In this document: in pieces, positions 5,850-35,008 of the stretch
How positions within the stretch are numbered: position 1 is the stretch's first letter
Layout of the letters: each line of letters starts with the position of its first letter
Assembly: GCA_024639005.1 (NCBI GenBank)
Contig: JAHEJD010000017.1
Location: 3,549 to 38,910 of the forward strand
Reading direction: 5' to 3'
Origin: Chromatiaceae bacterium
GTDB taxonomy: Bacteria > Pseudomonadota > Gammaproteobacteria > Chromatiales > Chromatiaceae
DNA length: 35,362 nt
Position numbers and translations under genes: made by a program
The notes under the pieces: model-generated
Told to the model about the DNA's origin: nothing
Database searches by the model: none
Seen by the model: the letters and a program-made list of their open reading frames with translations, nothing else

Positions 5850-5950
5850 TTCATTCCATCAGATCCCCTTCCCCGCCGACCGATCAGGCCCGACCCTTGC
5901 CAAAGCCTCGCAATCGATTATCATTCTCGTCCTATCCCGCATCGGGGAAG

Positions 5951-5978: not shown

Positions 5979-6013
5979 ATTCCGCTTTGCGGGCGGCGCC
6001 GATAAAAACTAAA

Positions 6014-6031
6014 CGCGCGCCAAAGCGCGCG
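6014..6031 (+). promoter_or_regulatory. GC hairpin in the soxX 5' leader
   Basis: A perfect 7-bp inverted repeat (CGCGCGC at 6014-6020, GCGCGCG at 6025-6031) encloses a CAAA loop about 40 bases before the soxX ATG. No T-tract follows, so it is not a standard terminator. It could stabilise the sox mRNA, act as a leader element or be a protein-binding palindrome. Confidence 0.5.
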
Positions 6032-6072
6032 ACTAAACCCACGTTGTAAGTTTTGTGAAAGGAGGAAGAGCG

Positions 6073-6444: not shown

Positions 6445-6484
6445 CGGCCACTACCTCTCAACCGATTTGTTTAGGAGAAGTTCG

Positions 6485-11975: not shown

Positions 11976-12065
11976 CGCTCGACAGCGCCTTGATCGGGTC
12001 GCGTTTGCAGCCGAAGATCCTGCTTTGGTCTATAGAAATCATTTCACCCTGACCGAGAGGCCGCG

Positions 12066-12494: not shown

Positions 12495-12541
12495 GGCCGT
12501 GATAGGCTCTAAGGCCACGTCAGTTTTTGTAATCCTGCTGC

Positions 12542-13036: not shown

Positions 13037-13050
13037 GGAATCAAGGGACC

Positions 13051-13887
13051 ATGACAACCATCAGAAAATGCTTATTCCCGGCCGCCGGTTACGGCACACG
13101 GTTTCTCCCGGCCACCAAATCGATGCCCAAGGAGATGCTGCCAGTCGTCGACAAGCCGCTGATTCAATACGGCGTAGAAGAGGCCATGGAGGCCGGCATG
13201 TGCAATATCGGCATCGTCACCGGCCGCGGCAAACGGGCGCTGGCCGATCACTTCGATGTCAGCTACGAGCTCGAACACCAGATCAGCGGCAGCTCGAAAG
13301 AGGGCCTGTTGAAGGATATCCGCCGCATCCTCGACGGCTGCACATTTTCCTACACCCGGCAATCGGAGATGAAGGGTCTGGGTCATGCCATCCTCACCGG
13401 TGAGAGCCTCGTGGGTAACGAACCCTTCGGCGTGGTGCTGGCCGACGACCTGTGCGTCGGTGAGGGCGATGGCGTCCTGACCCAGATGGCACGGATCTAC
13501 CAAAAGTACCGTTGCTGCGTCGTGGCGATCGAGGAGGTGCCCCACGACGAAGTGGAAAAGTATGGCGTGATCGCCGGCTCTGAACTCGAAGACGGGGTCT
13601 ATGTGGTCTCCGATATGGTGGAGAAACCACAGCCGGACGATGCGCCGTCCAACCTCGCGATCATCGGCCGCTATATCCTCACGCCCGATATCTTTGATGT
13701 GATTCGCAACACGCCACCGGGTCGAAACGGCGAAATTCAGATCACCGATGCGCTGCAGATCCAGGCAGAGCGCAACATGGTGCTGGCCTACCGCTTCAAG
13801 GGGAGGCGCTTCGACTGCGGCAGCGTGCATGGCTTCGTTGAGGCCACCAACTATTTCTACGAACGCTGGAAAGAGACCCAAGACTGA
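13051..13887 (+). CDS. galU: UTP--glucose-1-phosphate uridylyltransferase, 278 aa
   Basis: GalU makes UDP-glucose from UTP and glucose 1-phosphate, feeding cell-envelope polysaccharides and sugar-nucleotide-dependent glycosylation. The N-terminal nucleotide-binding signature AAGYGTRFLPATKSMPKEM (from about residue 7) and the later VEKPQPDDAPSNLAIIGRY region are typical. Length is that of bacterial GalU. ATG 13051 has an AAGGGA site. UDP-glucose could also feed the glucosyl-3-phosphoglycerate synthase encoded about 5 kb downstream, if that enzyme uses UDP-glucose. Confidence 0.95.
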   Translation: MTTIRKCLFPAAGYGTRFLPATKSMPKEMLPVVDKPLIQYGVEEAMEAGMCNIGIVTGRGKRALADHFDVSYELEHQISGSSKEGLLKDIRRILDGCTFSYTRQSEMKGLGHAILTGESLVGNEPFGVVLADDLCVGEGDGVLTQMARIYQKYRCCVVAIEEVPHDEVEKYGVIAGSELEDGVYVVSDMVEKPQPDDAPSNLAIIGRYILTPDIFDVIRNTPPGRNGEIQITDALQIQAERNMVLAYRFKGRRFDCGSVHGFVEATNYFYERWKETQD

Positions 13888-15844: not shown

Positions 15845-16180
15845 GTCTCCTCCTCACTGTGCTGCGAATGTGACCAACGAAAACGCTGCTCTCAGCGCCC
15901 TGAATCGTATTCTAGAGCGCGATCATTGCGCCAAGACCACGCCGGGTGGCAGGAAAAGACAGGGCACTGCGACACCGCCTGTGGCATGCGACGTCCCAAT
16001 CTGGTGCGCATGCCCCAGCACTGCGCGCAACCGACGTCAGGCTGCAGCGCCCATCAGGCGCATGAAGGCGAACACCGGCATACCCTGCTGGTATTGCCCA
16101 CAGCATGATAGAAGGCAAGGATGGCGCAATAATTGCCGCTCACGATGCCCAGAGGTCCAAGCCGTGTCGCTACGCGCCCG
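15845..16180. other. intergenic region upstream of the GH13_18 gene
   Basis: These 336 bases separate divergent genes and should hold both promoters. I see no clear sigma70 box, tRNA or terminator. No frame shows convincing coding character. The extent depends on the uncertain start of the next gene (16145 or 16181). Confidence 0.5.
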
Positions 16181-17950: not shown

Positions 17951-17986
17951 ACCCCGCGGTTCAACAGCGCAGGACCCGCTAGGCCT

Positions 17987-18832
17987 ATGCAGCCCATACC
18001 CACCCTCATCTTCAGCGACCTGGACGGGACTCTGCTCGACCATGACGACTACCGCTTCGATGCCGCCCGCCCGGCGCTGGCGGCCATCCGCGACCTGGGC
18101 ATCCCGCTGATACTCAGCACCAGCAAGACCCTGGCCGAAGTCGCGGCGATCAATCAGGCGCTCGATAATCACCATCCGGCGATTGTCGAAAACGGCAGTG
18201 CCCTGTGCTTTCCGCTCGATCACGAATATCCCTTCGAGCTCGTCGCGCATGAAACGCTCGATGCCCATATGGTCATCAGACTCTCTCCCCCCTACGCAGA
18301 AATCCGGCATTTCATCCAGCGACAGCGAGGCGAGCACGACTGGAAGCTCCGCGGCTTCGGCGATATGCGCACCCAGGACGTGATGGAATTGGCAGGCCTC
18401 GATGAAGAGTCGGCGCACAGGGCCATGCAGCGCATGGGCAGCGAACCCTTCGTGTGGCTGGACGACGAGACCGCGCTGGCGCGTTTCCGCCAAATCGCAC
18501 AGGAGCAGGGACTGGCGATCACCCGTGGTGGTCGGTTCTGGCACCTGATGGGCCAGACGAGCAAGGCCGAGGGGCTCAAGGCGATACGCACGCTCTATGC
18601 AGTGGATAGTGCCGAGCGCATCACCAGCGTTGCGCTCGGCGACAGCGATAATGACAAAGCGATGTTGCAGAGTGCCGATATTGCCGTCGCGATCAAGCGA
18701 CCGGACGGCAGTCATCTGGATTGCCATGGCATTCGGCAGACGCTGCTCACGGATCAACCAGGTCCTGCCGGCTGGAACGAGGCCATCCTGCAGATCCTGT
18801 CGCAGCACATCCGCGATACGCCCAAGGTCTGA
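17987..18832 (+). CDS. HAD-IIB glucosyl/mannosyl-3-phosphoglycerate phosphatase, 281 aa
   Basis: A HAD-superfamily phosphatase: Asp11 and Asp13 form the catalytic DxD in SDLDGTLLD, with an STSK segment and a C-terminal GDSDNDK metal-binding motif. The cap and length fit the mannosyl-3-phosphoglycerate phosphatase group (MpgP), some members of which also act on the glucosyl form. It would remove phosphate from glucosyl-3-phosphoglycerate to give the osmolyte glucosylglycerate. The synthase gene begins 11 bases after its stop, and the phosphorylase gene ends 36 bases before its ATG, so the three look co-transcribed. Sugar specificity is inferred from the neighbouring GT81 enzyme. Confidence 0.87.
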   Translation: MQPIPTLIFSDLDGTLLDHDDYRFDAARPALAAIRDLGIPLILSTSKTLAEVAAINQALDNHHPAIVENGSALCFPLDHEYPFELVAHETLDAHMVIRLSPPYAEIRHFIQRQRGEHDWKLRGFGDMRTQDVMELAGLDEESAHRAMQRMGSEPFVWLDDETALARFRQIAQEQGLAITRGGRFWHLMGQTSKAEGLKAIRTLYAVDSAERITSVALGDSDNDKAMLQSADIAVAIKRPDGSHLDCHGIRQTLLTDQPGPAGWNEAILQILSQHIRDTPKV

Positions 18833-18837
18833 GGAGG
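18831..18837 (+). promoter_or_regulatory. ribosome-binding site fixing a TTG start for gpgS
   Basis: GAGGAGG overlaps the stop of the phosphatase gene and sits six bases before TTG 18844. It marks that codon as the start and rules out the earlier in-frame ATG at 18721, which lies inside the phosphatase gene. Confidence 0.85.
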
Positions 18838-18843
18838 CAACGG

Positions 18844-20049
18844 TTGGACTTTTTCCAGAACGGCACCATCACCACGCTGCACAAGCTTTGCCGCCGATCG
18901 ATTGAGGAAATGGAGGCCGAACTCAAGGCATTTTCGGCCGAACGCCCGATGGCACTGATCCTGCCGAGTCTGTATTCCGAGTTGGAAGGCCCCGCCCTGC
19001 CGAAGATCGTCGAGGAACTGAAACACGCCACCTATATCTCGGAGATCATTGTCGGCCTCGATCAGGCCAACGAAAATCAGTTCGAACATGCCAAGGCGTT
19101 CTTCTCCGTCCTACCGCAGAACGTGCACATCCTCTGGAACGACGGGTCCTGGCTGCGTGAGATCGATGCACAGCTGCAGGCGCAGGATCTCGCCCCGACC
19201 CAAGCGGGAAAAGGGCGTAACGCCTGGTATTGCATGGGCTACGCCCTGGCGCTCGAGCACTGCGAGGCCATCGCCCTGCACGACTGCGATATCCTTACCT
19301 ACGACCGCAGCCTGACCGCGCGCCTGTTCTACCCAGTGGCAAACCCCGCCTTCAGTTTCGATTTCTGTAAGGGTTACTATTCGCGCATCGATGGCGACCG
19401 TCTCAGCGGCCGTGTCACCCGATTGTTCGTCACGCCGTTGATTCGCGCCTTGAAGAAGGTCGTAGGCCAAATGGACTATCTCGAGTTCATGGACAGCTTT
19501 CGCTATCCTCTGTCCGGTGAGTTCTCGCTCAGTCGTAATTTCGTCAAAATGCTGCGCATACCGAGTGACTGGGGCCTCGAGGTCGGCGTACTCTCAGAGG
19601 TCTATCGCACCCTGGCGCGCGGCAGCGTCTGCCAGGTCGATATCGCCGACCAATATGATCACAAGCACCAGGCGCTTTCCCAGGACGACGCCAACCAGGG
19701 CTTGATGCGGATGAGCGTGGAGATCGCCAAGTCGCTCTATCGCAAGCTTGCCACCGAGGGAATCACCCTCTCGACCGAGGACTTCCGGTCGCTCAAGGCC
19801 GCTTACTATCGTATTGCGCTGGATTCCACCGAGCAGTATTTCTACGATGCGCGAATCAATGGCCTGCGCTATGACCGCCATCATGAGGAAAGCAGTATCG
19901 AGGTGTTTTCGCAAAGCATCATGGCAGCCGGCGAGACCTTCCTGGCCAACCCGATGGAGTCCCCATTCATCCCGAACTGGAACCGGGTGCATGACGCCTT
20001 TCCGGATATCTGCCAGCAATTGATCAAGGCGGTGAAGGCGAATAGCTGA
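18844..20049 (+). CDS. gpgS: glucosyl-3-phosphoglycerate synthase (GT81), 401 aa
   Basis: GpgS transfers glucose from a nucleotide sugar to 3-phosphoglycerate, the first step to glucosylglycerate, a compatible solute used under salt stress or nitrogen limitation. The protein begins MDFFQNG and has the segments VGLDQANENQFEHAKAFF and ILWNDG. The metal/nucleotide DxD-like motif is HDCDILTYD near residues 146-154, followed by SFDFCKGYYSRI. Length matches the family. The start is a TTG with a very strong ribosome site. Its stop overlaps the ATG of the next gene by one base (TGATG). Confidence 0.92.
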   Translation: MDFFQNGTITTLHKLCRRSIEEMEAELKAFSAERPMALILPSLYSELEGPALPKIVEELKHATYISEIIVGLDQANENQFEHAKAFFSVLPQNVHILWNDGSWLREIDAQLQAQDLAPTQAGKGRNAWYCMGYALALEHCEAIALHDCDILTYDRSLTARLFYPVANPAFSFDFCKGYYSRIDGDRLSGRVTRLFVTPLIRALKKVVGQMDYLEFMDSFRYPLSGEFSLSRNFVKMLRIPSDWGLEVGVLSEVYRTLARGSVCQVDIADQYDHKHQALSQDDANQGLMRMSVEIAKSLYRKLATEGITLSTEDFRSLKAAYYRIALDSTEQYFYDARINGLRYDRHHEESSIEVFSQSIMAAGETFLANPMESPFIPNWNRVHDAFPDICQQLIKAVKANS

Positions 20050-23122: not shown

Positions 23123-24084
23123 TCGACGTCATCCTGCTGGGTTTTCTGGTGCTGATCGCAATCGCGGCAATCCGTATGCGGGATCTGTTCGGCGTGGTCA
23201 TCCTGTTCAGCATCTACAGCCTGATGACCGCCGTGCTGTTCATGGACCTCGACGCCGTCGACGTGGCCTTTACCGAGGCGGCCGTCGGTGCCGGGGTATC
23301 AACGGTGCTGATGCTGTCCAGCCTGCGCCTGACCAGTCGTTGGGAACGCCGCCCGGTACACGGCCCGCTGTTGCCGCTGCTCGTGGTCGGCATCACCGGC
23401 ACGGCGCTGATCTACGGCACGCTGGACGCGCCGCTGCTCGGCGACCCCGGTGCCCCGGTCCATCAGCACGTCGCCCCCCGCTATATCGAACAGGGTCCGG
23501 CGGAGGTCGGTATGCCCAATATGGTCACCGCGGTACTGGCCAGTTACCGCGGCTACGATACCTTCGGCGAGACCCTGGTGATCTTCACCGCCGGCGTCGC
23601 GGTACTGCTGTTGCTCGGCATTCAAGAGGGGCCGCACGCTCAACCCGGACGCGCAGCCATCGGCGGCGACCAGGTAGTGCTGCGCGTCGTCGTCAAGCTG
23701 CTGATCCCGCTGATCCTGCTGTATGGGCTTTACGTGCAGTTCCACGGCGACTTCGGCGCCGGCGGCGGCTTCCAGGCCGGGGTGATCTTCGCCACCGGCT
23801 TCGTACTCTATGACCTGGTGTTCGGCGCAGGCAATGCCCGCCTGGTCGTGCCGCCGACCTGGCTGCCAAGGCTCGCCGCGATCGGCATATTGATCTACGG
23901 CGGTGTCGGCCTGGTCTCCCTGTTCGCGGGCAAACCCTTCCTGGACTATTCCGCGCTCTCGAAGGACCCGGTGGGCGGTCAACACCTGGGCGTGCTGCTG
24001 GTCGAACTGGGTGTCGGGGTTACCGTGTTCTCCATAGTGCTTGCGATCTATATGGCGCTGGCCGGCAGGAGACGACGGGCATGA
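23110..24084 (+). CDS. mrpB: fused MbhD(DUF4040)-MrpB antiporter subunit, 324 aa from ATC
   Basis: The N-terminal third (about residues 1-80, with RMRDLFGVVILFSIYSL and DVAFTEAAVGAGVST) is the MbhD/DUF4040 domain that in classical Mrp systems forms part of the C-terminus of MrpA. The rest matches MrpB/MnhB (VRVVVKLLIPLILLYGLYV, then FGAGGGFQAGVIFATG). Fusion of these two parts replaces the missing MrpA tail. The coordinates assume the ATC start at 23110, because it restores the first helix (ALIDVILLGFLVLIAIAAI) and has an ideal ribosome site; GTG 23149 is the conservative alternative. The stop overlaps mrpC by four bases. Confidence 0.88.
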   Translation: MEALIDVILLGFLVLIAIAAIRMRDLFGVVILFSIYSLMTAVLFMDLDAVDVAFTEAAVGAGVSTVLMLSSLRLTSRWERRPVHGPLLPLLVVGITGTALIYGTLDAPLLGDPGAPVHQHVAPRYIEQGPAEVGMPNMVTAVLASYRGYDTFGETLVIFTAGVAVLLLLGIQEGPHAQPGRAAIGGDQVVLRVVVKLLIPLILLYGLYVQFHGDFGAGGGFQAGVIFATGFVLYDLVFGAGNARLVVPPTWLPRLAAIGILIYGGVGLVSLFAGKPFLDYSALSKDPVGGQHLGVLLVELGVGVTVFSIVLAIYMALAGRRRRA

Positions 24085-24488
24085 GCGGACTGCCGGGGCT
24101 CTATAATTACTGGATCGCCGTGTTCCTGATGATGGCCGGCTTCTATGTGGTCATCTCACAGGGCAATCTGGTCAAGAAGCTGGTCGGCCTGGCGTTGTTC
24201 CAGACCTCGGTCTTCATCCTGTACATCTCGCTGGGCAAGGTGGCCGGCGGCAGCGCGCCGATCTTTGATGCCGGGGTCACGGTCTACTCGAACCCCTTGC
24301 CGCACGTGCTGATACTGACCGCGATCGTCGTCGGTCTCGCCACCACCGCCGTGGGTCTGGCGCTGATCGTACGGATTCAGGAGGCCTACGGCAGCGTCGA
24401 AGAGGAAGACATCCACGCCCAGGATCTGATCGACGACGAGCGTGAGACGCCGACGCAAGCCTTTGGGCCGGAGGATGATCGGCAGTGA
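24081..24488 (+). CDS. mrpC: Mrp-type antiporter subunit C, 135 aa
   Basis: A NuoK-like three-helix subunit. The YYVVISQGNLVKKLVGL-like first half, IFDAGVTVYSNPLPHVLILTAIVVG and the final GLALIVRIQEAYG helix match MrpC/MnhC. A charged tail of about 28 residues follows. ATGA overlap with the preceding gene and GTGA overlap with the next indicate tight coupling. Confidence 0.93.
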   Translation: MSGLPGLYNYWIAVFLMMAGFYVVISQGNLVKKLVGLALFQTSVFILYISLGKVAGGSAPIFDAGVTVYSNPLPHVLILTAIVVGLATTAVGLALIVRIQEAYGSVEEEDIHAQDLIDDERETPTQAFGPEDDRQ

Positions 24489-25969
24489 CCCTGCTCGATC
24501 ACCTTCCGGTACTGGTGGTGCTGCTGCCGCTGTTTGCAGCACCATTGTGCGTGCTGATCGACCGCGCGCGTCCGGCCTGGCTGCTATCGCTGATCGCATC
24601 CTTGCTCAGCCTCGCAGCGGCGATAACGCTGCTGATGCAGGTCTCGAGCAGCGGCGCCATCCGGTATCAGCTGGGAGGCTGGGCCGCACCGTGGGGTATC
24701 GAATACCGCATTGACCTGCTCGGCGCCTATGTACTGCTGATCGTCAGCGCGATCGCCCCGCTGGTGATGGTATTCGCGCTGCGCAGCGTCGAAAAGGAGA
24801 TCCCGAGACAACGCATCGCCCGCTTCTATGCCGCCATGCTGCTGGTCTTTGCCGGACTTGCCGGCATCACCGTGACCGGGGATGCCTTTAATCTGTTCGT
24901 CTTCCTCGAGATCTCATCACTGGCGTCGTATGCAGTGATCAGCATGGGCAGTGACCGGCGCGCACTGAACGCGGCCTTCCAGTACCTGGTGATGGGCACC
25001 ATCGGCGCCACCTTTATCCTGATCGGTATCGGCTTCCTGTACATGATGACCGGCACGCTGAATATGATCGACCTCGCCGAAAGGCTGCCGGCGGTCTCGG
25101 AGACCCGCACTGTGCGCGCCGGTTTCGCGTTTCTCACCGTCGGCATCGGCCTCAAGCTGGCGCTGTTCCCGCTGCACCTGTGGCTGCCCAATGCCTACGC
25201 CTATGCACCATCCGCGGTGACGGCCTTCCTCGCTGCGACGGCGACCAAGGTCGCGGTCTATGCGCTGCTGCGCTTCCTGCTCGAGATCTTCGGCGTGCAG
25301 TTCTCGCTGCAGGCGATGCCGCTCGACCTGATTCTGATGGTATTGGGTCTCGCCGGCATTGTGTCGGCATCGCTGGTCGCCGTCTTCCAGCAGAACGTCA
25401 AGCGCATGCTGGCCTACTCCAGTGTCGCGCAGATCGGCTACATGATGCTCGGCATCGGCCTGGCCTCGACCACGGGCGTCACCGCCGCCATCCTGCATGT
25501 CTTCAACCATGCGTTGATGAAGGGTGCGCTGTTTCTCGCGCTGGGTGCCGTGGCCTATCGCATCGGGTCGGTGACGCTGCGCGATTTTGCCGGGCTCGGG
25601 CGGCGCATGCCCTGGACCATGGCGGCGATCGTCATCGGCGGCCTCAGTCTGATCGGCGTGCCGCCCACGGTCGGTTTCGTCAGCAAATGGTATCTGGTGC
25701 TCGGCACCCTGGAGCAGGGGCTGTGGCCAGTGGCGCTGCTGATCCTGCTGGGTTCTCTGCTGGCACTCATCTACGTCTGGAGGCTGGTGGAGGCGGCCTA
25801 TTTCGGCCAACCCCCCAGCGATGCGGCGACGCTGCAGGAGGCGCCGCTGTCGATGCTGATCCCGGTCTGGATCCTGGTCGGCGCCAACATCTACTTCGGT
25901 GTGTATACCGAGGTCAGCGTCGGCGTCGCGAGCCGGGCCGCCATCCAACTGATGGGGATTGAGGGTTGA
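24485..25969 (+). CDS. mrpD: Mrp antiporter ion-conducting subunit D (first copy), 494 aa
   Basis: An ND2/ND4/NuoM-type ion-conducting membrane subunit with about 14 helices. The key glutamate lies in FVFLEISSLASY, the middle-membrane lysine in GIGLKLALFPLHLW, and a second lysine in AATATKVAVY, so both charged positions of the proton path are kept. GTG 24485 is the start and overlaps the mrpC stop by four bases. It is the most canonical of the three D-like subunits in this operon. Confidence 0.93.
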   Translation: MTLLDHLPVLVVLLPLFAAPLCVLIDRARPAWLLSLIASLLSLAAAITLLMQVSSSGAIRYQLGGWAAPWGIEYRIDLLGAYVLLIVSAIAPLVMVFALRSVEKEIPRQRIARFYAAMLLVFAGLAGITVTGDAFNLFVFLEISSLASYAVISMGSDRRALNAAFQYLVMGTIGATFILIGIGFLYMMTGTLNMIDLAERLPAVSETRTVRAGFAFLTVGIGLKLALFPLHLWLPNAYAYAPSAVTAFLAATATKVAVYALLRFLLEIFGVQFSLQAMPLDLILMVLGLAGIVSASLVAVFQQNVKRMLAYSSVAQIGYMMLGIGLASTTGVTAAILHVFNHALMKGALFLALGAVAYRIGSVTLRDFAGLGRRMPWTMAAIVIGGLSLIGVPPTVGFVSKWYLVLGTLEQGLWPVALLILLGSLLALIYVWRLVEAAYFGQPPSDAATLQEAPLSMLIPVWILVGANIYFGVYTEVSVGVASRAAIQLMGIEG

Positions 25970-27450
25970 GCGGGGCGCAGCTGCTGGCCTGCATCCTGGC
26001 GGTGCCGATGCTCGGGGCGATCGGTGTCGCCTTGACGCGACACAGGCCGAACCTGCGCGAAGGCGTGAGTATTGCCGCCGGCATCGTCCTGTTCCTGTTG
26101 GTCGCGACCCTCGCCGCGACCATCTCCTGGGATGCAGCGCCGACCCTGGTGCTGGCCGAGCCCGTGCAGGGCCTCGCGCTGGCCCTGACACCGGAGCCCT
26201 TGGGGATGTTGTTCGCGCTGGTCGCCAGCTTTCTGTGGCCAATCACCACCTTATACGCGCTCGGCTATATGCGCGCCCATCACGAGCAGAATCAGACACG
26301 CTTCTACGTCGCCTTCGCCGTCTCGATCGGTGCGGCCATGGGCATCGCGCTGGCCGGCAATATGCTGACCCTGTTCGTGTTCTACGAGATCCTGTCGGTG
26401 GCCACCTACCCGCTGGTGACGCATGCCGGCACGGACAAGGCAAGACGCGCCGGCCGCCTCTACTTAGGCCTGCTGATGGGCACCTCGATCGGCTTCCTGC
26501 TGTTGGCCATGGTCTGGACCTGGCAGCTCACGGGCACGCTGGACTTTACGCCCGGCGGCGTGTTCGGCGACAAAGTCGGCAGCGGTATGCTCAGCGTTCT
26601 GCTGGTGCTCTATGTATTCGGCACCGGCAAGGCGGCGATCATGCCCTTTCATCGCTGGCTGCCGGCGGCGATGGTGGCGCCGACACCGGTGTCGGCGCTG
26701 TTGCACGCCGTTGCAGTCGTCAAGGCCGGGGTATTCACTATCCTCAAGGTCGCGGTCTATATCTTCGGCATCGACACCATTGCGGGTCTCGCAGCGGCCG
26801 ACTGGCTGCTCGCTCTGGCCGGATTCACCATCTTGATGGCCTCGATCATTGCGCTGCGCAAAGACAACCTGAAGGCCCGGCTGGCGTACTCGACTATCAG
26901 TCAACTCAGCTATATCGTGTTGGGCGCGATGTTGGGGGTCGTCGCCGGCGCGGTCGGCGGCGGTCTGCATATCGCGATGCACGCCTTCGGCAAGATCACG
27001 CTTTTCTTCTGCGCCGGCGCCATCATGGTCACGGCGCACAAGACCCGGGTCAGCCAGCTCAACGGTATCGGCCGGCGCATGCCATGGACCATGGGTGCCT
27101 TTGCCGTGGGCGCCGTGTCGATGATCGGCGCGCCACCCGCGGCAGGCTTTATCTCCAAATGGTATCTGGTGCTGGGTTCACTGGACGCCCAGCAGTTGTT
27201 CGCAGTGGCGGTGATCGTGATCTCGACGGTGCTCAATGCCGCCTATTTCATGCCCATCATCTATGCCGCCTTCTTCAAGCCAGAGGATCCGGCGCAAGAT
27301 CAGGATGCGCATGGCGGGGGGCATGCCGACCACGGCGAGGCGCCCTGGCCGATCCTGCTGGCGCTGGTAACGACTGCGCTATTCGCCGTCTTGTTGTTCT
27401 TCTTTCCGGGCGCCCCGTTGGCGCTCGTCCAGCGAATGGTAGCCCTGTGA
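25966..27450 (+). CDS. second ND/MrpD-like ion-conducting subunit, 494 aa
   Basis: A second MrpD/NuoM-type subunit, same length as the first but clearly diverged. Key charged residues remain: Glu in FVFYEILSVATYP, Lys in FGTGKAAIMPFHRWLP and lysines in AVAVVKAGVFTILK. In classical Mrp one of the large subunits is MrpA; this may fill that place without the extra MrpA C-terminal domains. The start is TTG 25966, overlapping the first copy's stop (TTGA). A His-rich loop (QDAHGGGHADHGEAP, near residue 445) precedes the last helix. Confidence 0.9.
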   Translation: MSGAQLLACILAVPMLGAIGVALTRHRPNLREGVSIAAGIVLFLLVATLAATISWDAAPTLVLAEPVQGLALALTPEPLGMLFALVASFLWPITTLYALGYMRAHHEQNQTRFYVAFAVSIGAAMGIALAGNMLTLFVFYEILSVATYPLVTHAGTDKARRAGRLYLGLLMGTSIGFLLLAMVWTWQLTGTLDFTPGGVFGDKVGSGMLSVLLVLYVFGTGKAAIMPFHRWLPAAMVAPTPVSALLHAVAVVKAGVFTILKVAVYIFGIDTIAGLAAADWLLALAGFTILMASIIALRKDNLKARLAYSTISQLSYIVLGAMLGVVAGAVGGGLHIAMHAFGKITLFFCAGAIMVTAHKTRVSQLNGIGRRMPWTMGAFAVGAVSMIGAPPAAGFISKWYLVLGSLDAQQLFAVAVIVISTVLNAAYFMPIIYAAFFKPEDPAQDQDAHGGGHADHGEAPWPILLALVTTALFAVLLFFFPGAPLALVQRMVAL

Positions 27451-27749
27451 TGGAAACACCGCATAAGCAGACGCAGCCCGACGCGGCGGGCAAGCGCCCA
27501 AAACACTGGCTGTACCGCAGCGAAAATCTGCCCAAACTGTGGATGCTGCAGATCCTGGTCCTGGCGCTGGCGCTTGTCCCGGAATTCTTCGTCCACCACC
27601 ACCCACATTTCGAGCATGAGGCCTTTACCCTGGACGCCAGCTTCGGTTTTTACGCCTGGTATGGTTTCCTGGCCTGCGCCGGCATGGTCGCGCTGGCCAA
27701 GATCCTCGGCATCTTTCTAAAGCGCGAGGAAAGCTATTATGACGACTGA
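27450..27749 (+). CDS. small two-helix membrane protein with His-rich loop, 99 aa
   Basis: A charged N-terminal tail of about 30 residues leads to two hydrophobic helices (about residues 35-50 and 70-92). The short loop between them contains FFVHHHPHFEHE, and the C-terminus ends EESYYDD. No standard Mrp subunit letter fits. Its ATG overlaps the stop of the second D-like gene (TGATG) and its 3' end overlaps the third D-like gene by 11 bases, so it is embedded in the operon and is probably a subunit or assembly factor of the complex. The histidines could bind a metal or protons. Function unknown. Confidence 0.8.
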   Translation: METPHKQTQPDAAGKRPKHWLYRSENLPKLWMLQILVLALALVPEFFVHHHPHFEHEAFTLDASFGFYAWYGFLACAGMVALAKILGIFLKREESYYDD

Positions 27750-29427
27750 CCTCGCGTTTCCGCCGGGCCTGATCCTCGTCCTGGGCGCCGTGCTGATCCC
27801 CTTCGCCGCCGAGCGACAGCGCCTGCTGCTGTTGCTCGGCCTGCCGCTGCTGACGCTGGCCGCGGTCTGGTGGCTGCCCAACGGCAGCCTGTTGCAGCTG
27901 GGCTTTCTCGACTACACGCTGGAGCCGGTCAAATCGACCGCCGAGGGCCGCCTGTTCGCCACCGTATTCTCGATCATGGCCTTGGCCGGCGGACTCTATG
28001 CGCATCGCCAGGCCAGCACCCTTGAGCTGACCGCCGCCTTCATCTATGCGGGCTCGGCGATCGGCGTGACCTTCGCCGGTGACCTGCTGACCCTGTTCGT
28101 GTTCTGGGAGCTCATGGCCTTTGGCTCAACCGTGGTCATATGGTCCGCAGGCAGCGTCGGCGCCCAGCGGGCCGGCCTGCGCTACCTGCTGGTCCATCTG
28201 TTGGGCGGGGTGATACTGATGGTCGGCATTGTGGCCCAGGTAGCCGCGACCGGATCGCTCGCCTTCACTGTGATGACGCCCGACAGCCTGGCTACCGCGC
28301 TGATCCTGATCGGCTTCCTGGTCAATGCCGGCGCCCCACCGCTGTCTGCCTGGATCGCCGACGCCTATCCCGAGGCCACGCCAAGCGGCACCGTGTTCCT
28401 GTCCGCATTCACCACCAAGACCGCAGTCTTTGCGCTACTGGTTGGCTTCCCGGGGGCTGAGATCCTGGTCCCGATCGGCCTCTATATGGTCTTCTACGGC
28501 ATCATCTATGCGCTGCTGGAAAACGACATGCGGCGCATCCTCGCCTACAGCATCGTCAACCAGGTGGGCTTCATGGTCGCGGCAATCGGCATCGGTACCC
28601 CGATGGCGTTGAACGGTGCGGCGGCCCACGCCTTTGCGCACATCATCTACAAGGCCCTGCTGTTGATGTCGGCCGGCAGCGTGCTGATGATGACGGGCAA
28701 ACGCAAATGCACCGATCTCGGCGGCCTGTTCCAGAGCATGCCGCAGACCGCGATCAACGGCATTGTCGGCGCACTGGCGATCTCGGCCTTTCCGTTCACC
28801 TCCGGCTTCGTGACCAAGTCGCTGGAGACCCAGGCGGCCGCGAACGAGGGCATGCTCTTGGTCTGGCTGCTACTGCTGGCGGCGTCGGCGGGTGTGTTCC
28901 TGCACGCAGGCATCAAGTTTCCCTGGTTCGTATTCTTTCAGAAGGATTCGGGGCTACGACCGCCGGAACCACCGGCCAATCTGCGCTACGCGATGTGGTC
29001 GTTCTCGTTTCTCTGCCTGGCGCTCGGCGTCTACCCTGCCCCGCTGTACGCGATCCTGCCCTACCCGGTCGACTATCAGCCCTACACCGTCGATCACCTG
29101 GTCAGCCAGTTCCAGATCCTGTTGTTCGCGGGCTTTGCATTCTTCGTGATGCTCAAGCAGATGCGGCGCACACTGACCATCAGCCTCGACTTCGACTGGT
29201 TCTATCGCAAGTTCCTTAAGGCGATCGGCAATGAGTTTACGGGGCTCACCAGCGCGGCGCGAGACGAAAAAGAGGAGCAGGCCCTGGCCGGCGTGTGGCG
29301 ACTGGTCGATAAGCTCTACCAGCACCACGGTCCGCAGGGCATGCTCGCCCGCTCCTGGCCGACCGGGAGCATGGTGATCTGGGTCGCCGCGCTGCTCGGT
29401 CTGTCGCTGCTGCTCTATTACATCTGA
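27739..29427 (+). CDS. third ND/MrpD-like ion-conducting subunit, 562 aa
   Basis: An MrpD/NuoM-like membrane subunit with an added soluble C-terminal segment (about residues 475-540) and a final helix. The glutamate of the ion path is kept (FVFWELMAFGS). At the helix-7 site, however, the usual Lys is replaced: LVNAGAPPLSAW has Asn196 where the first copy has Lys in GLKLALFPLHLW, and Ser203 where that has His. The later lysine in AFTTKTAVFALL remains. This form probably conducts differently or plays a structural role. ATG 27739 starts inside the preceding small gene. It is the last gene of the operon. Confidence 0.9.
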   Translation: MTTDLAFPPGLILVLGAVLIPFAAERQRLLLLLGLPLLTLAAVWWLPNGSLLQLGFLDYTLEPVKSTAEGRLFATVFSIMALAGGLYAHRQASTLELTAAFIYAGSAIGVTFAGDLLTLFVFWELMAFGSTVVIWSAGSVGAQRAGLRYLLVHLLGGVILMVGIVAQVAATGSLAFTVMTPDSLATALILIGFLVNAGAPPLSAWIADAYPEATPSGTVFLSAFTTKTAVFALLVGFPGAEILVPIGLYMVFYGIIYALLENDMRRILAYSIVNQVGFMVAAIGIGTPMALNGAAAHAFAHIIYKALLLMSAGSVLMMTGKRKCTDLGGLFQSMPQTAINGIVGALAISAFPFTSGFVTKSLETQAAANEGMLLVWLLLLAASAGVFLHAGIKFPWFVFFQKDSGLRPPEPPANLRYAMWSFSFLCLALGVYPAPLYAILPYPVDYQPYTVDHLVSQFQILLFAGFAFFVMLKQMRRTLTISLDFDWFYRKFLKAIGNEFTGLTSAARDEKEEQALAGVWRLVDKLYQHHGPQGMLARSWPTGSMVIWVAALLGLSLLLYYI

Positions 29428-29896: not shown

Positions 29897-31156
29897 ATGT
29901 CGCTGATTCATGGATTAGTGCGCGCTTGCAGCGTCTTATGCCTGCTGGCGCCGTCGGTGTTTGCCGCAGAGGCGGTCCAGCACGTCGATGCGGAGGCCTG
30001 CAAGCAATGCCACGAGGAAATCTATACGCAGTGGAAGGGTTCGATGCATGCCAACAGCTCGGCGTTAAAGGATCCTATCCATGGTGCGTTCTACAAGAAG
30101 GTGATGGGTGACCCCACGCAGGAGAACGTGCGCAACAAAAAGGGCAAGTACCCGGTGTGTCTCAAGTGCCATGCGCCGGTCGCGGCGATGGACAAGAAGA
30201 CCAAACTGGATGCCAAGAAGTCCTACATGGACGGCATCAGCTGCACCACTTGTCACTCCTTCAAGGCCTTCAAGGGCACCGATTCCGCCGACGGCAAGCC
30301 GCTCTACGGCATCGACGCCTACGAGATAGACAAGACCAGTCTCCACGGGCCCTCGGGGATCAGTTACACCACGGAGCGGACGCCCGAGGGCGCGGCTTGG
30401 CCGACGCCGGTTCACCATCCGGTACCGCTCGAGGGTAACAAGACCGCACTGTTCAAGAGCAATGACGCCTGCATGGGTTGCCACGAGAAGCGCAGCAATG
30501 CGCACGGCACGCCATTGTGTCGTACCGGCAACGAATACCGTACATCGAATAACTTCGTGAGCTGTCAGGCCTGCCACATGGCGATCGTCAGCGTACCGAA
30601 GATGAAAGACGGTGAAGTGGTACCGGGGGAGATGGTCAGCATTCCGGATCACAGCATGGCCGGCGGTCACGACGGCAAGATGATCACCCGCGGCATCGCA
30701 ATGAGCATGGATACGCGGCGCGAAGGCGACACCATCAAGACCACGCTCATCGTGCGCAATCGCCTGCCGCACGCCTATCCGACCGGCGCGCCCTTCCGCA
30801 ACTTCTACATCCGCGTCGCGACGTACGACAAAGACGGCAAGATGTTGTGGAAGAACTACAAGGTGCATCCGATCAAGGACGATCCCAAAGCGGCGTTTTG
30901 GTACACGCTGGGTGACGCGAGCGGCAAGCCGACCGCTCCGCCCACGGCCACGCAGGTGCTCAAAGATACCCGCCTGAAGCCAAACGAGGTACGTACGCTG
31001 GAGTACGACATCCCGCTGCAGCCGGGTACCAGTATCGTGCGCGCCGAGGCGCTGTACGACCTGATGCTGCCACCGATCAAGGCGAAGATGAAAGGCAAGC
31101 TGCCAGACGATCTGTTGCAGCCGAAGCTGGCCGCATCTGCCGAGATCCGGCTGTGA
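29897..31156 (+). CDS. pentaheme c-type cytochrome, cytochrome c554-like, 419 aa
   Basis: A signal peptide (about residues 1-24) precedes five CxxCH heme sites: 35-39, 88-92, 116-120, 192-196 and 223-227. The first region (CKQCHEEIYTQWKGSMHANS) resembles cytochrome c554-family multiheme proteins. The C-terminal third (about residues 255-419) has no hemes; its NRLPHAYPTGAPFRNFYI stretch suggests a beta-sandwich domain found after such heme domains. It would act in the periplasm, either shuttling electrons or as an enzyme of unknown substrate. A GAGGAGG site sets ATG 29897. It heads a four-gene set with a tetraheme cytochrome, an iron-sulfur protein and an NrfD-like protein. Confidence 0.88.
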   Translation: MSLIHGLVRACSVLCLLAPSVFAAEAVQHVDAEACKQCHEEIYTQWKGSMHANSSALKDPIHGAFYKKVMGDPTQENVRNKKGKYPVCLKCHAPVAAMDKKTKLDAKKSYMDGISCTTCHSFKAFKGTDSADGKPLYGIDAYEIDKTSLHGPSGISYTTERTPEGAAWPTPVHHPVPLEGNKTALFKSNDACMGCHEKRSNAHGTPLCRTGNEYRTSNNFVSCQACHMAIVSVPKMKDGEVVPGEMVSIPDHSMAGGHDGKMITRGIAMSMDTRREGDTIKTTLIVRNRLPHAYPTGAPFRNFYIRVATYDKDGKMLWKNYKVHPIKDDPKAAFWYTLGDASGKPTAPPTATQVLKDTRLKPNEVRTLEYDIPLQPGTSIVRAEALYDLMLPPIKAKMKGKLPDDLLQPKLAASAEIRL

Positions 31157-31197
31157 AGGCAACCTCCGGGCTGACCATCTAGATCGGAACTGACGGC

Positions 31198-32082
31198 GTG
31201 CGCGGGCCGGTCGAAATCGTGCTGTCGCTGACCGTTGCACTGGCGCCTGCGATGTTGGCGGGCACCAGCGCGGCGGAACAGCCGGCGTCTAGCGCGACCG
31301 AAGAGTCCGCTGGCGTCGACGACTGGGACTGGGGCGCCATCGGCGACCTGGATGATGCGCCAGTCGTTGGCAAACCGAGCAGTTCCCGCGCGGTGGCTGG
31401 CAAGACACCAAAGGCACGCGGCAACGCCGAGAACGCGAGGCCGGATCTCGCTGCGACGCCGCGTCCGGCCTATGCCGTGTTCGAAGACGTACCGCCGTTC
31501 GAGGTAATACCCAGCGTGCGCGATGCCGATATGCACCCCTGCTCCAACTGCCATCAGTGGGTGTTGAGCGATCCCACGCCACGCACGCTGAAGACACCCC
31601 ACGACAATTTCGAGTTGCAGCACGGCCTGCATGGCAAGGGAAAATTTTGGTGCTTCACCTGCCACGATCTCGATGGCAAGGGTGGGCTGAAGACACTGGA
31701 GGGTGAACAGCTCGAATTCGGCGACGCCTATGTGCTGTGCAGTCAGTGTCATCCGGACCAGGCGCGCGACTGGGTGTTCGGCGCCCACGGCAAGCGTCAG
31801 GGCAACTGGCAAGGCACGCGGCAGGTGTTCAACTGTACCGCCTGTCACTATCAGCATCGACCGGCCCTTAAGGCGCGTGCACCGGAGCCGGGACCACCGA
31901 TGCGCCTGGGACTCGAGCGTCCCGCGCACTGGGTAGCGAAGAACAAACGGCAGGACACTGAACACGTCACGCGTGCCGTCGGGCAGACACGGGCAGCCAC
32001 TCAAGAGCGGCCCAACGCAGAAAGCGATACGGACGAAGACCGCGCCCACATAGCAGAACGGCCCGACGATGAAAAATCCTGA
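31198..32082 (+). CDS. tetraheme c-type cytochrome, 294 aa
   Basis: After a signal peptide (about residues 5-26) comes a Ser/Ala/Asp-rich spacer with DDWDWGAIGDLDDAP (42-55). Four CxxCH sites follow at 115-119, 152-156, 181-185 and 213-217. The CTACHYQHRPAL and FGAHGKRQGNW segments resemble small multiheme proteins encoded beside NrfC/NrfD-type membrane modules. The last 75 or so residues are polar and probably disordered. The start is GTG 31198, the only standard start ahead of the signal peptide, with a weak ribosome site. It overlaps the iron-sulfur gene by 14 bases, so the two are almost certainly made together. It probably links the membrane module to the pentaheme cytochrome. Confidence 0.85.
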   Translation: MRGPVEIVLSLTVALAPAMLAGTSAAEQPASSATEESAGVDDWDWGAIGDLDDAPVVGKPSSSRAVAGKTPKARGNAENARPDLAATPRPAYAVFEDVPPFEVIPSVRDADMHPCSNCHQWVLSDPTPRTLKTPHDNFELQHGLHGKGKFWCFTCHDLDGKGGLKTLEGEQLEFGDAYVLCSQCHPDQARDWVFGAHGKRQGNWQGTRQVFNCTACHYQHRPALKARAPEPGPPMRLGLERPAHWVAKNKRQDTEHVTRAVGQTRAATQERPNAESDTDEDRAHIAERPDDEKS

Positions 32083-33004
32083 CCCCGAAAAACCTACGCT
32101 GAAGCCGGATGAACAGGCGCGCCGGCGCTTTCTTCAGGGGCTGGCGGCTGCAACCGGGGCGGGTGCCGCAAATGCCGCGTTCGGCGCCTGGGGCGGCAAC
32201 ACGCTGTCGGATGCGTTTGCCGATTTTTTTCAACAGCACTATCAGCGCATGACGGAAGACGAGATAGGCGACACCATTGCGCGCATCGAACGCAAGGCGC
32301 AGCGCCGCTACGGCGTCGACCTTCAGTGCGATAACACGCCGCCGCAGGATGGCGTCGTCTTCGGTTATGCCATCAATGTCTCCAAGTGCCGCGGCTACCG
32401 CGACTGTGTGCATGCCTGTGTGAAGGAAAACAATCTCAGCCGCGACACCCAGTACATTCGCGTGATCGAGATGGATCGGGACAGTGTCGATCTGCGCCAT
32501 GGCGATCACTATTACGACCATGCCGAAGTGCCCGTCGAGGGCAAATATTATCTGCCGATGCAGTGTATGCAGTGCGACAATCCGCCCTGCGTCAAGGCCT
32601 GTCCGGTAGAGGCCACTTGGAAGGAGCCAGACGGCATCGTGGTCGTCGACTACGACTGGTGCATCGGTTGTCGATACTGCATGACGGCATGCCCCTATCA
32701 GGCGCGGCATTTCAATTGGGGCTCGCCCGATCTGCCGGCAGAGGCGATCACTGTACAGACCCATTATCTGGGCAACCGTCCGCGACCGCGCGGCGTAGTC
32801 GAGAAATGCCATTTCTGCGTGCAGCGCGCCCGCAAGGGCCGCCAGCCGGCCTGCCAGGAGGCCTGCCCGACCGGTGCCCGGATCTTCGGCAACCTGCTCG
32901 ATCCGAACAGCGAAATACGCTATGTACTCGAGCACAAGGCGATCTTCCGCCTGAAGGAGGACCTGGGTACAGAGCCGAAGTTTTGGTACTTCCGCGATGA
33001 GTGA
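32069..33004 (+). CDS. Tat-exported four-cluster iron-sulfur protein (NrfC/DsrO/TtrB-like), 311 aa
   Basis: An RRRFLQG twin-arginine signal (residues 18-24) implies export with cofactors already in place. Four groups of cysteines follow, as in NrfC, DsrO and TtrB: 107/113/117, 166/169/174/178, 198/201/204/208 and 247/250/262/266. The first group has Tyr110 where the second cysteine should be (CRGYRDCVHAC), so one cluster may be [3Fe-4S] or otherwise ligated. It would wire the NrfD-like quinone site to the periplasmic cytochromes. Its gene overlaps both neighbours, by 14 and 8 bases. No catalytic molybdoenzyme subunit is encoded next to it. Confidence 0.92.
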   Translation: MKNPDPEKPTLKPDEQARRRFLQGLAAATGAGAANAAFGAWGGNTLSDAFADFFQQHYQRMTEDEIGDTIARIERKAQRRYGVDLQCDNTPPQDGVVFGYAINVSKCRGYRDCVHACVKENNLSRDTQYIRVIEMDRDSVDLRHGDHYYDHAEVPVEGKYYLPMQCMQCDNPPCVKACPVEATWKEPDGIVVVDYDWCIGCRYCMTACPYQARHFNWGSPDLPAEAITVQTHYLGNRPRPRGVVEKCHFCVQRARKGRQPACQEACPTGARIFGNLLDPNSEIRYVLEHKAIFRLKEDLGTEPKFWYFRDE

Positions 33005-34298
33005 GACCAAGGCCAATCTGACTGGCTTCCTGGTCAGCAGCCTGGGCCATATGGTGCGTGGCGGTATGCTCTATTGGCTATGGCTTGTCGCCCTGCTGTC
33101 CCTCATGTTCGCCGGCGGATGGTTCTATTATCTGCAGCTGCGCGATGGCCTGATCGTCACCAACATGACCAATCAGGTGTCCTGGGGCTTTTACATCTCC
33201 AACTTCACCTTCCTGGTCGGTGTGGCCGCCGCGGCGGTGATGCTGGTCGTACCCGCATACATCTTCGACCGCAAAGACATCAAGGACGTGGTGCTGATGG
33301 GAGACACCATCGCGATCGCGGCCGTCACCATGGCGATCCTGTTCGTGGTCGTCGATCTGGGCCGGCCGGATCGTTTCTGGCACCTGATTCCGTTCATCGG
33401 GCGGTTCAATTTTCCACAGTCGCTGCTCGCCTGGGACGTCATCGTGCTCAACGGCTATCTGCTGCTGAACCTCGGGATCTCCTTCTATATCGTTTACAAC
33501 CATTACCAGGGAAAAGACCCCGCGCAGGCGCGCTATTTCCCGTGGGTGCTGTTGGCGATCTTCTGGGCCATCTCGATCCATACCGTGACCGCGTTCCTGT
33601 ACTCAGCGAACTCCGCGCGACCCTTTTGGCACAACGCGCTGCTGGCGCCGAGATTCATTGCGTCCGCCTTCGCCTCCGGCCCCGCGCTGATGGCGATCGG
33701 CCTACAGATCATCCGGCGGATCAGCGACTATCCAATCCGCCAGACCGTGATCGATCATCTGGCGCTGGTTACCGCGATCGCGCTGCAGATCACGCTGTTC
33801 TTCCTGGTGGCAGAGCTGTTCACCGACTTCTACAACGAAGGCGAGCACGCGGCCTCGGCCCGCTATCTGTTCTTCGGCCTCGACGGTCACACGGGCCTCA
33901 CTCCGTGGATCTGGACCGCTGTGATATTGCTCACGATCGCAATGGTGATATTGATGATTCACCCGCTGCGCAGGCACCCCCTGTCGATGAACTTCGCCTT
34001 CGTACTCACCGTGGTCGGCATCTGGATAGAAAAGGGTATGGGCCTGGTGATCCCGGCCTTTGTCCCCACGCCGATCGGCGAGATCTACGAATACACCCCG
34101 AGTACCACGGAGATCATGGTATCGCTCGGCATCTGGGCCTTCGGCCTGCTGCTGTTCACGCTGTTGGCCAAGGCGTCGCTGCCGGTGCAATGCGCGTTCC
34201 TTCGACAGAAGTCGAACAAGCAAGGAGAGATCGATGATTTTCCTGCGACACGTGAGGCCGGCACGCGCCGTCCGGCGGCTAACGGCGTCCCAATTTGA
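32997..34298 (+). CDS. NrfD/DsrP/PsrC-like membrane quinone-interacting subunit, 433 aa
   Basis: A polytopic membrane protein of about ten helices and typical NrfD-family length, with conserved-type segments GFYISNFTFLVGVAAAAVML and LGRPDRFWHLIPF. NrfD-type proteins bind quinone and pass electrons to or from an iron-sulfur partner, as in PsrC, DsrP, ActC and QrcD. Here the partner is the upstream gene, whose stop this ATG overlaps. A polar tail of about 35 residues ends the protein. Whether it oxidises quinol or reduces quinone, and whether it pumps ions, cannot be told from sequence. Confidence 0.92.
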   Translation: MSETKANLTGFLVSSLGHMVRGGMLYWLWLVALLSLMFAGGWFYYLQLRDGLIVTNMTNQVSWGFYISNFTFLVGVAAAAVMLVVPAYIFDRKDIKDVVLMGDTIAIAAVTMAILFVVVDLGRPDRFWHLIPFIGRFNFPQSLLAWDVIVLNGYLLLNLGISFYIVYNHYQGKDPAQARYFPWVLLAIFWAISIHTVTAFLYSANSARPFWHNALLAPRFIASAFASGPALMAIGLQIIRRISDYPIRQTVIDHLALVTAIALQITLFFLVAELFTDFYNEGEHAASARYLFFGLDGHTGLTPWIWTAVILLTIAMVILMIHPLRRHPLSMNFAFVLTVVGIWIEKGMGLVIPAFVPTPIGEIYEYTPSTTEIMVSLGIWAFGLLLFTLLAKASLPVQCAFLRQKSNKQGEIDDFPATREAGTRRPAANGVPI

Positions 34299-34444: not shown

Positions 34445-35008
34445 ATGAGCAGACCTGAGATTACCGAAGACATGATTTTCCAGTGCTTCGCGGCGGCACA
34501 GCAGTCCGCGGACAGCACCAAGACGGCCCAGTCCTTCGTGGACGTCGAAGAATACGAGAATCAGATCATGTATCCGGAATTTGCGCGTTGGGCCAGGACA
34601 GCCGGTTATCCGCAGCTGGCGACCCTATTCATGAAGGTGGCCGGCGAGGAGAAGCTGCACGCCGTCTGGCTGCGTGAACTCTATGACGATATCGGCGTAC
34701 CGGATCGCGGCGAAGATACCCAGCGTGCCATCGATGCCCTGACCACCATTCGCGCCAACTGTGACGCGTTGATCGCCCAGAATCCGGACGGCGTAGTCGA
34801 GAAGGCGCTCAAGGTGGCGATCTCGGTGGAAGAGCGGGAGTATCAGGATATCTATCCACGTTTCCGTGATCAGGCGCGCGCGCGCGGAGACCTCAGAGAG
34901 GCGGAGGTCTACCAACGCGTCGTCGATTCAGAGGCGGAACACGCCGAATGGTTCCGTGCCGCACTGCACGAGTTCCAGGCCGGTCAGGTCCAGGCCGCTG
35001 CACACTGA
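34445..35008 (+). CDS. rubrerythrin-like diiron protein without rubredoxin domain, 187 aa
   Basis: A ferritin-like four-helix protein with two rubrerythrin-type half sites: an EEYENQ...EEKLH pair (about residues 35-72) and an EEREYQ...EAEH pair (about residues 127-166). These supply the carboxylate and histidine ligands of a diiron centre. There is no C-terminal rubredoxin (no CxxC pairs), so an outside electron donor is needed. Rubrerythrins reduce peroxide or sense oxygen. ATG 34445 follows a GGAG site. It is 146 bases after the NrfD gene, with a GGGCC/GGCCC hairpin in between, so it may be a separate unit. Confidence 0.88.
   Translation: MSRPEITEDMIFQCFAAAQQSADSTKTAQSFVDVEEYENQIMYPEFARWARTAGYPQLATLFMKVAGEEKLHAVWLRELYDDIGVPDRGEDTQRAIDALTTIRANCDALIAQNPDGVVEKALKVAISVEEREYQDIYPRFRDQARARGDLREAEVYQRVVDSEAEHAEWFRAALHEFQAGQVQAAAH

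Follow-up and report, generated by a model that had tools for sequence, protein, structure and literature searches.

A pentaheme cytochrome c552 gene next to a tetraheme-FeS-NrfD trio in a Chromatiaceae bacterium: a candidate quinone:cytochrome oxidoreductase

The gene set and its products

The window, i.e. the whole analysed stretch of 35,362 nucleotides (positions 3549-38910 of contig JAHEJD010000017.1, label C14) from a Chromatiaceae bacterium, encodes in one row a pentaheme cytochrome c552, a tetraheme cytochrome, an iron-sulfur (FeS) protein and an NrfD-family membrane protein (Table 1). The last three genes are referred to as the trio; G000 denotes the window genome, the other G labels denote genomes of its order and L labels the loci that were read. 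All four open reading frames (ORFs) proposed by a first-pass annotation were confirmed, and three of them overlap as it had noted: genes 2 and 3 share 14 bases, genes 3 and 4 share 8 bases, and gene 1 lies 41 bases ahead of gene 2. Pfam matches were obtained for gene 1 (Cytochrome_C554, PF13435, E=1.3e-16), gene 3 (Fer4_11, E=2.7e-21) and gene 4 (NrfD, E=4e-42); gene 2 reached no Pfam or NCBIfam model at cut-off. Hydropathy profiles presented ten hydrophobic segments for the product of gene 4, a single N-terminal one for each of the cytochromes and none for the FeS protein.

Table 1. Features of the gene set and the adjoining gene (positions in the window)
Feature	Position	Strand	Properties
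Gene 1, pentaheme cytochrome c552 (T. tepidum low-potential c552 / PHC type)	29897-31156	+	419 aa, 5 CXXCH
Gene 2, tetraheme cytochrome of the trio	31198-32082	+	294 aa, GTG start, 4 CXXCH
Gene 3, Tat-type ferredoxin-like FeS subunit, DsrO-like	32069-33004	+	311 aa, Tat-like RRRFL, 15 motif Cys
Gene 4, NrfD-family membrane subunit, DsrP branch	32997-34298	+	433 aa
Rubrerythrin-family protein	34445-35008	+	PF02915 E=3e-15; between the gene set and the downstream rhodanese-PsrABC genes

The product of gene 1 aligned over residues 16-416 with the crystallised cytochrome c552 of Thermochromatium tepidum (PDB 5ze8_A, phmmer E=3.9e-102) and is, by this alignment, its full-length homologue. Exactly ten histidines were invariant in 35 aligned pentaheme sequences, five in the CXXCH motifs and five outside them. 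In the tetraheme cytochrome the four CXXCH histidines and four further histidines were kept in 99-100 % of 78 sequences. Each of the nine hemes is thus matched by a further conserved histidine, so that probably all are bis-His coordinated without an open site, and the set probably carries electrons without a catalytic heme. This disagrees, for the related cable-bacterial protein sPHC, with PMC11976967 (here and below, papers are cited by PMC number), where it is grouped with cytochromes that have a pentacoordinated heme and may be catalytic. The pentaheme ORF has no in-frame TGA ahead of its end, and the position of the MccSep selenocysteine is a leucine in gene 1 according to a weak alignment (E=0.0014). 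A cysteine outside the heme motifs of the pentaheme protein, Cys208, was invariant in the 35 sequences. For the tetraheme protein, phmmer yielded a single PDB match at E<=1 (E=0.3). Its AlphaFold2 model, built from 64 sequences and without hemes, had a mean pLDDT of 70.1 and a pTM of 0.54; for this heme-free model Foldseek returned no match at E<=0.001, and in VIA-align 2 none of the five chains compared attained a Z of 2 or more.

The FeS protein scored 194.6 bits with the NCBIfam model for DsrO, a near miss of the cut-off of 200. It had been annotated as a four-cluster protein; in the first motif, Cys-x2-Tyr-x2-Cys-x3-Cys, the second cysteine is replaced by Tyr110, leaving three of the usual cysteines, and this site may hold a [3Fe-4S] cluster. 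By comparison with NarH and DmsB, this cluster would lie at the greatest distance from the quinone and beside the cytochrome. In 81 aligned FeS proteins the column of Tyr110 contained 39 Cys, 36 Tyr, 2 Asn, 2 Ser, 1 Val and one gap. Mapped on the NrfD tree, at least two changes between Cys and Tyr are required with L012 counted as Cys, and at least six when Asn, Ser and Val count as states of their own.

The membrane subunit exceeded the cut-off of the NCBIfam DsrP model (394.2 bits, cut-off 350). Its AlphaFold2 model (mean pLDDT 77.4, pTM 0.79) has the NrfD fold and aligned with ActC chains at Z 33.0-34.8 (best 6btm_C, Z 34.8, rmsd 3.6 over 391 residues) and with PsrC (2vpw_C) at Z 19.8. Asp120 and Ser142 align with a histidine and a serine of ActC and are kept in 95 % and 98 % of 85 sequences; section 7 of PMC8076601 assigns quinone-site roles to these ActC positions. 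Family scores and these residues place NrfD in the DsrP branch and point to a conserved quinone site. The NrfD tree was a quick IQ-TREE search with SH-aLRT support only, in which L039 and L051 form long branches; DsrP and PsrC lie on saturated branches, which places the relation to DsrP outside its reach. The NCBI DsrP model calls for caution, as it labels such NrfD proteins 'DsrP' without DsrMK encoded alongside. It matches the window NrfD; the NrfD protein of the Dsr cluster in the same genome went undetected by it at E<=1e-20. On plasmid NZ_CP076130.1 of Flammeovirga kamogawensis (L004), the gene at 11896-13113 is annotated as DsrMKJOP subunit DsrP; its neighbours encode NapD, a NapA-type enzyme and two tetraheme cytochromes.

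Conservation of the trio and the partners of the pentaheme cytochrome

The trio was followed through 81 loci, comprising the best 80 of at least 557 confirmed NrfD relatives of a genome scan and the Flammeovirga plasmid locus; its conservation therefore applies to near relatives (48-82 % identity) and not to the entire family. These loci span at least 10 phyla. Where more than 2.2 kb of sequence preceded nrfD, the tetraheme gene was present in 68 and the FeS gene in all of 69 loci, which argues against a chance association. Across 84 rows the counts were 80 for the FeS gene and 77 for the tetraheme gene, and the gaps coincided with contig ends except in L014, which lacks the tetraheme gene despite 8.6 kb of sequence ahead of the FeS gene. 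Within 8 kb of the trio in the 81 loci we found genes for a hydroxylamine oxidoreductase (HAO)-like octaheme cytochrome (17 loci), NapA (10), RquA (6), the pentaheme cytochrome (5), rhodanese together with PsrA (2) and DsrK (0). The pentaheme loci L007-L011 form one clade with the window and L014 in the NrfD tree (SH-aLRT 100). All four genes were linked in ten loci only: the window, G189/L007, G190, G192, G067, G023 and L008-L011. A search for conserved synteny, recommended with the first-pass annotation, has thus confirmed the trio as neighbours and restricted the four-gene linkage to a small clade.

In six of the 81 loci (L023, L024, L029, L030, L031, L036) RquA (310.3 bits, cut-off 175, for the copy of L031) and an SQR-like flavoprotein adjoin the trio. 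These are gammaproteobacteria, including two animal symbionts and Thiothrix, and a low-potential quinone may serve there. Rhodoquinone as a general partner was rejected: the window genome lacks RquA, and of the 210 genomes of the order 24 encode it, only five of them together with any of the counted NrfD forms.

The pentaheme cytochrome was detected in 114 of the 210 genomes of the order, in eight as a form close to that of the window (64-100 % identity) and in 106 as a more distant one. In the 106 genomes with the distant form, the HAO-like octaheme was present in 93, at a distance of up to 6 kb from the pentaheme gene in 90, and a NapC/NirT-type tetraheme cytochrome in 91. The eight genomes with the window form had neither an octaheme nor a NapC-type protein, and all except G196 encoded a window-type NrfD (7 genomes). 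An octaheme was counted above 480 bits only (96 of 128 genomes matching at E<=1e-30), a limit which leaves out a weaker group of about 50 % identity that is also present in the window genome; the NapC count is based on one query protein from L141 at E<=1e-40. No genome contained both the window-type and the octaheme-NapC set. The two sets alternate within the genus: the trio occurs in G000, G189, G190 and G192, octaheme and NapC in G186, G187, G188 and G193, and G191 lacks trio, octaheme, NapC and pentaheme. The gene order is pentaheme-octaheme-NapC-OTR (octaheme tetrathionate reductase)-rubrerythrin in G193; in G189 a gene for an OTR-type 15-heme protein is followed by pentaheme-tetraheme-FeS-NrfD-rhodanese-PsrA-PsrB-PsrC and rubrerythrin. 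Compared by gene order, the two arrangements suggest that a cassette was exchanged at a single locus. The 15-CXXCH protein, encoded in L007 at 3651-6557 (- strand) and adjoining the pentaheme gene, matches in its first half the octaheme tetrathionate reductase family (TIGR04315, 568.6 bits). Tentatively, and with rather less than even confidence, we propose that the quinone-side partner of c552 was exchanged in one purple sulfur lineage and its relatives, the trio having replaced the NapC-type dehydrogenase and the octaheme and joined a rhodanese-PsrABC cluster.

A variant tetraheme gene with three CXXCH motifs was encoded 3' of FeS-NrfD, not 5', in the three loci read for it (L144 10505-11341, L145 10494-11477, L146 10943-11881). 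The genomes with this variant carry a second NrfD form of 42-45 % identity.

Sulfur neighbourhood and direction of electron flow

On the same contig, 3' of the window (L005), follow genes for a protein with three rhodanese matches and for PsrA-, PsrB- and PsrC-like proteins, PsrA starting about 2.4 kb beyond NrfD. The rhodanese is predicted to be secreted, from the N-termini of relatives judged by eye. In Wolinella, Sud is a periplasmic sulfur-transfer protein serving Psr. PsrA aligned with the polysulfide reductase of T. thermophilus (2vpw_A) at 641 bits and attained 462.5 bits with the PhsA model, below the cut-off of 694; polysulfide and thiosulfate as substrate are thus not separable. The first-pass view of a stand-alone set without a molybdenum enzyme was too strong: it is true of the window only, and directly outside a PsrA-like molybdenum enzyme is encoded together with FeS and NrfD subunits of its own. 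Of the nine window-type loci that extend at least 1 kb further 3', seven have rhodanese and PsrA downstream (G000, G189, which is the L007 contig, G190, G192, G067, G023 and L010). A homologue of the rubrerythrin gene of Table 1 sits beyond PsrC in L134, L135 and L140. The window genome possesses pufM and is thus that of a phototroph. A Dsr cluster is located on contig C84 (DsrK 624.5 bits, DsrO 291.8 bits, a DsrM-like protein that stays under its cut-off with 151 bits, an ORF with three hemes and an NrfD protein), and an HAO-like octaheme cytochrome is encoded at C31:9692-10753. In the window, genes of an Mrp-type cation/proton antiporter stand 5' of the set (23149-29427), with subunit B encoded at 23149-24084 and two subunits of the D type at 24485-25969 and 27739-29427. 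At 16133-20049, genes resembling those of sucrose phosphorylase and glucosyl-3-phosphoglycerate synthase, each scoring under its cut-off, are perhaps related to a compatible solute.

A link of nine hemes between the quinone pool and the periplasm without a catalytic subunit among the four genes, as the first-pass annotation had suggested, is supported. Observed directly are gene content, synteny, family assignments, the quinone-site residues and the lack of any genome with both sets. From these observations we infer complex assembly, electron path, direction and substrate as follows. The trio (31198-34298) would assemble as a DsrOP-type membrane complex, in which NrfD takes the quinone close to the periplasmic side. 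Electrons would move outward via the clusters of the FeS protein to the tetraheme cytochrome, which would hand them to the soluble pentaheme c552, the product of gene 1. The trio would fill the place of the NapC-type tetraheme protein that goes with c552 in most of the order, with a usual flow from quinol via FeS protein and tetraheme to pentaheme. The end use may be the periplasmic reduction of sulfane sulfur or polysulfide, or of a similar acceptor. NapC/NirT proteins are quinol dehydrogenases and NapA is a reductase; the quinol-oxidising direction is favoured because the trio stands at the place of the NapC-type protein and because NapA is near the trio in 10 of the 81 loci. Sulfane sulfur or polysulfide is suggested as substrate by the rhodanese and PsrABC genes next door. 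The sulfur or nitrogen compound that had been put forward earlier agrees with the neighbours, rhodanese and PsrABC in the window genome, NapA and the HAO-like octaheme beside the trio elsewhere. Our confidence that the trio is a DsrOP-type quinone:cytochrome oxidoreductase which replaces NapC as partner of c552 and feeds sulfane-sulfur/polysulfide reduction, or a similar process, is evenly balanced.

Several observations weigh against this proposal. The second NrfD form was found in 25 of the 210 genomes, 18 of which also have a NapC-type protein, and G023 holds an extra copy of it beyond this count; the mutual exclusion thus holds for the window form of NrfD only. Fisher's exact test gave 9e-7 for NapC, a value that overstates independence since the eight window-form genomes are related. 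G196 has a window-type pentaheme and no NrfD match, and in G001 pentaheme and NrfD are on separate contigs, with no tetraheme gene beside the FeS gene. As to the end use, rhodanese and PsrA were not found in 6 kb downstream in L011 or in 1.1 kb in L009, and L008 ends too early; furthermore, PsrABC carries its own NrfD-type subunit and has no need for a second quinone partner. As to the direction, the octaheme family comprises both oxidising and reducing enzymes, its matches including hydroxylamine oxidoreductases and hydrazine dehydrogenase, and the octaheme beside the trio in 17 of the 81 loci is compatible with either direction. The host is a phototroph with its own Dsr cluster, and the set could be the point at which electrons of sulfur compounds reach the quinone pool. 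The HAO-like octaheme elsewhere in the genome makes a nitrogen substrate possible.

Somewhat unlikely, to be taken seriously nevertheless, is the same complex working in reverse, with electrons from the oxidation of a sulfur compound passing through c552, tetraheme and FeS protein to NrfD and the quinone. QrcABCD works in this manner and reduces menaquinone with electrons of the periplasmic cytochrome c3 (PMC13059093). Such a flow would suit a purple sulfur host with pufM and a Dsr cluster, the octaheme neighbours from a family with oxidising members and the term "low-potential" in the title of the pentaheme structure paper, as cited in PMC11976967. A sulfur dehydrogenase is however lacking among the four genes, the alternative partner at the locus is of the NapC/NirT type (PF03264 E=3.6e-37), and the NapA genes near the trio also speak for a reductive use.

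The octaheme cytochrome on C31 might itself be the terminal enzyme of a nitrite or hydroxylamine respiratory branch, with c552 as its donor. In its favour, the best PDB match for the octaheme was 4qo5 (E=7.6e-38), and pentaheme and octaheme genes are at most 6 kb apart in 90 of the 106 other genomes. A Beggiatoaceae octaheme cytochrome, possibly of the same family and with homologues among purple sulfur bacteria, reduced nitrite and oxidised hydroxylamine and hydrazine (PMC6449678), and nitrite reduction was proposed for an NrfD-FeS-cytochrome locus with a HaoA-like gene beside Nap in Thermosulfurimonas (PMC5276818). The octaheme of the window genome is, however, more distant, with 51 % identity to the pentaheme-linked one, no further multiheme gene was found in the 20 kb read around it, and the trio genomes G189, G067 and G023 have no octaheme match at E<=1e-30. 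We regard this branch as unlikely.

A third proposition is an outer-membrane or extracellular route for chalcogen oxyanions or minerals, resembling the Ext cluster of Geobacter with an ExtKL-like pentaheme, an ExtM-like 11-heme protein and a rhodanese. The Ext cluster consists of pentaheme, 10-12-heme, rhodanese and porin proteins, and loss of extI impairs selenite and tellurite reduction (PMC5877670). An 11-heme protein adjoins the pentaheme in L009, L010, L135 and L138. The scores are far under the Ext cut-offs, both for the pentaheme with the ExtKL model (62.9 bits, cut-off 250) and for the 11-heme protein of L009 with ExtM (208 bits, cut-off 800). Moreover, in the window genome an ExtM-like query produced one match of 31 residues (E=3.5e-6) and an OTR-type query none. 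We consider this route very improbable and keep the quinol-oxidising trio with c552 as the preferred reading.

Relation to described systems and significance

By gene content the set differs, as had been proposed, from NrfABCD, DsrMKJOP, Qrc and alternative complex III (ACIII). On paper the arrangement is like that of NrfBCD, where an NrfD-type membrane protein, an FeS protein and a pentaheme carrier pass electrons to a periplasmic enzyme. Unlike the NrfABCD system of E. coli, there is no NrfA among the four genes, nor did one appear in the scan, which covered six proteins of the window and not the remaining genome. Gene 3 reached 116.4 bits with NrfC (cut-off 377.6), the pentaheme protein is not NrfB (E=0.058), and the NrfD equivalog gave no hit at E<=0.1 for the window set. 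The scores with the Qrc models were likewise under the cut-offs, for QrcC (159.9, cut-off 400) as for QrcD (52.5, cut-off 570). With ACIII the set shares the ActC-like fold of the membrane subunit; the single-chain molybdenum-like plus FeS protein ActB has no counterpart, the FeS protein of 311 aa having Fer4-type Pfam matches only. PsrABC is a separate enzyme whose functional link to the trio is drawn from synteny. Of the pentaheme proteins homologous to T. tepidum c552/PHC, the more distant forms of this order mostly have octaheme and NapC as neighbours in place of the trio.

The resemblance to DsrMKJOP is closer, with NrfD in the DsrP branch and the FeS protein almost at the DsrO cut-off. 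DsrM and DsrK are however not encoded with the trio, as DsrK is located on C84 and the set on C14, and the tetraheme cytochrome stands in place of DsrJ, a triheme protein, with which the 3-heme ORF in L006 agrees. That the trio is the JOP part of this complex, relocated from dsrMK, is suggested by the DsrP score of NrfD and highly improbable on all other grounds: the window genome has its separate Dsr cluster, the cytochrome has four hemes, and DsrK was not near the trio in any of the 81 loci; in L036 dsrM lies at 7.9 kb and dsrK past that.

The first-pass annotation had called the set undescribed. This does not hold for the trio core, which is already described from cable bacteria, nor for the pentaheme with its solved relative 5ze8. 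A tetraheme protein and its FeS and membrane neighbours were presented as candidate alternative complex III (pACIII) in PMC11976967; section 11 of PMC13047784 describes a DsrOhPh-tetrahaem locus in a clade apart from canonical DsrP, with relatives in Gamma- and Betaproteobacteria, and suggests quinone-to-periplasm transfer. As described there, the cable-bacterial pACIII/(TMH1-)DsrOhPh-tetrahaem resembles the trio in the His-His tetraheme and in DsrO and DsrP homologues that stand together and apart from dsrMK. The window set has this gene content, with a DsrK/DsrO cluster on another contig, and the 78-sequence alignment predicts four His-His hemes. Unlike the cable-bacterial locus, the window trio is preceded by the pentaheme c552 gene and followed by rhodanese-PsrABC; TMH1 is unique to cable bacteria in the locus descriptions of PMC11976967 and PMC13047784. 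The portions of these two papers available to us do not mention a link of pentaheme and trio, though both proteins occur in cable bacteria. In Thermosulfurimonas dismutans and Dissulfuribacter thermophilus the multiheme protein TDIS_0606 (HaoA-like), NrfD, a 4Fe-4S protein and a cytochrome c are encoded beside napMADGH (PMC5276818, 2017), and nitrite or tetrathionate/polysulfide metabolism was proposed. By description, this locus resembles the trio-octaheme-NapA loci and lacks a pentaheme c552. Other NrfD-containing clusters with a pentaheme are reported for Planctomycetota (PMC10732223). In the open-access literature, covered by titles and abstract starts and with most subscription papers outside, no paper described the linkage to c552, the alternation with octaheme-NapC, the rhodanese-PsrABC context or the Cys-to-Tyr change.

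Widespread as the trio is, no function has been assigned to it; for cable bacteria it may supply the step still missing between quinone and periplasmic cytochromes. The linkage reported here names a concrete partner, c552 with its solved relative, and an alternative module, NapC with the octaheme, and opens the question to tests with soluble, purifiable proteins and cultured purple sulfur bacteria. If the exchange of partners is true, the trio would be the direct redox partner of PHC-type pentaheme cytochromes generally, those of cable bacteria included, and the FeS chain would begin at a three-cysteine cluster, unlike the chain in usual four-cluster NrfC proteins.

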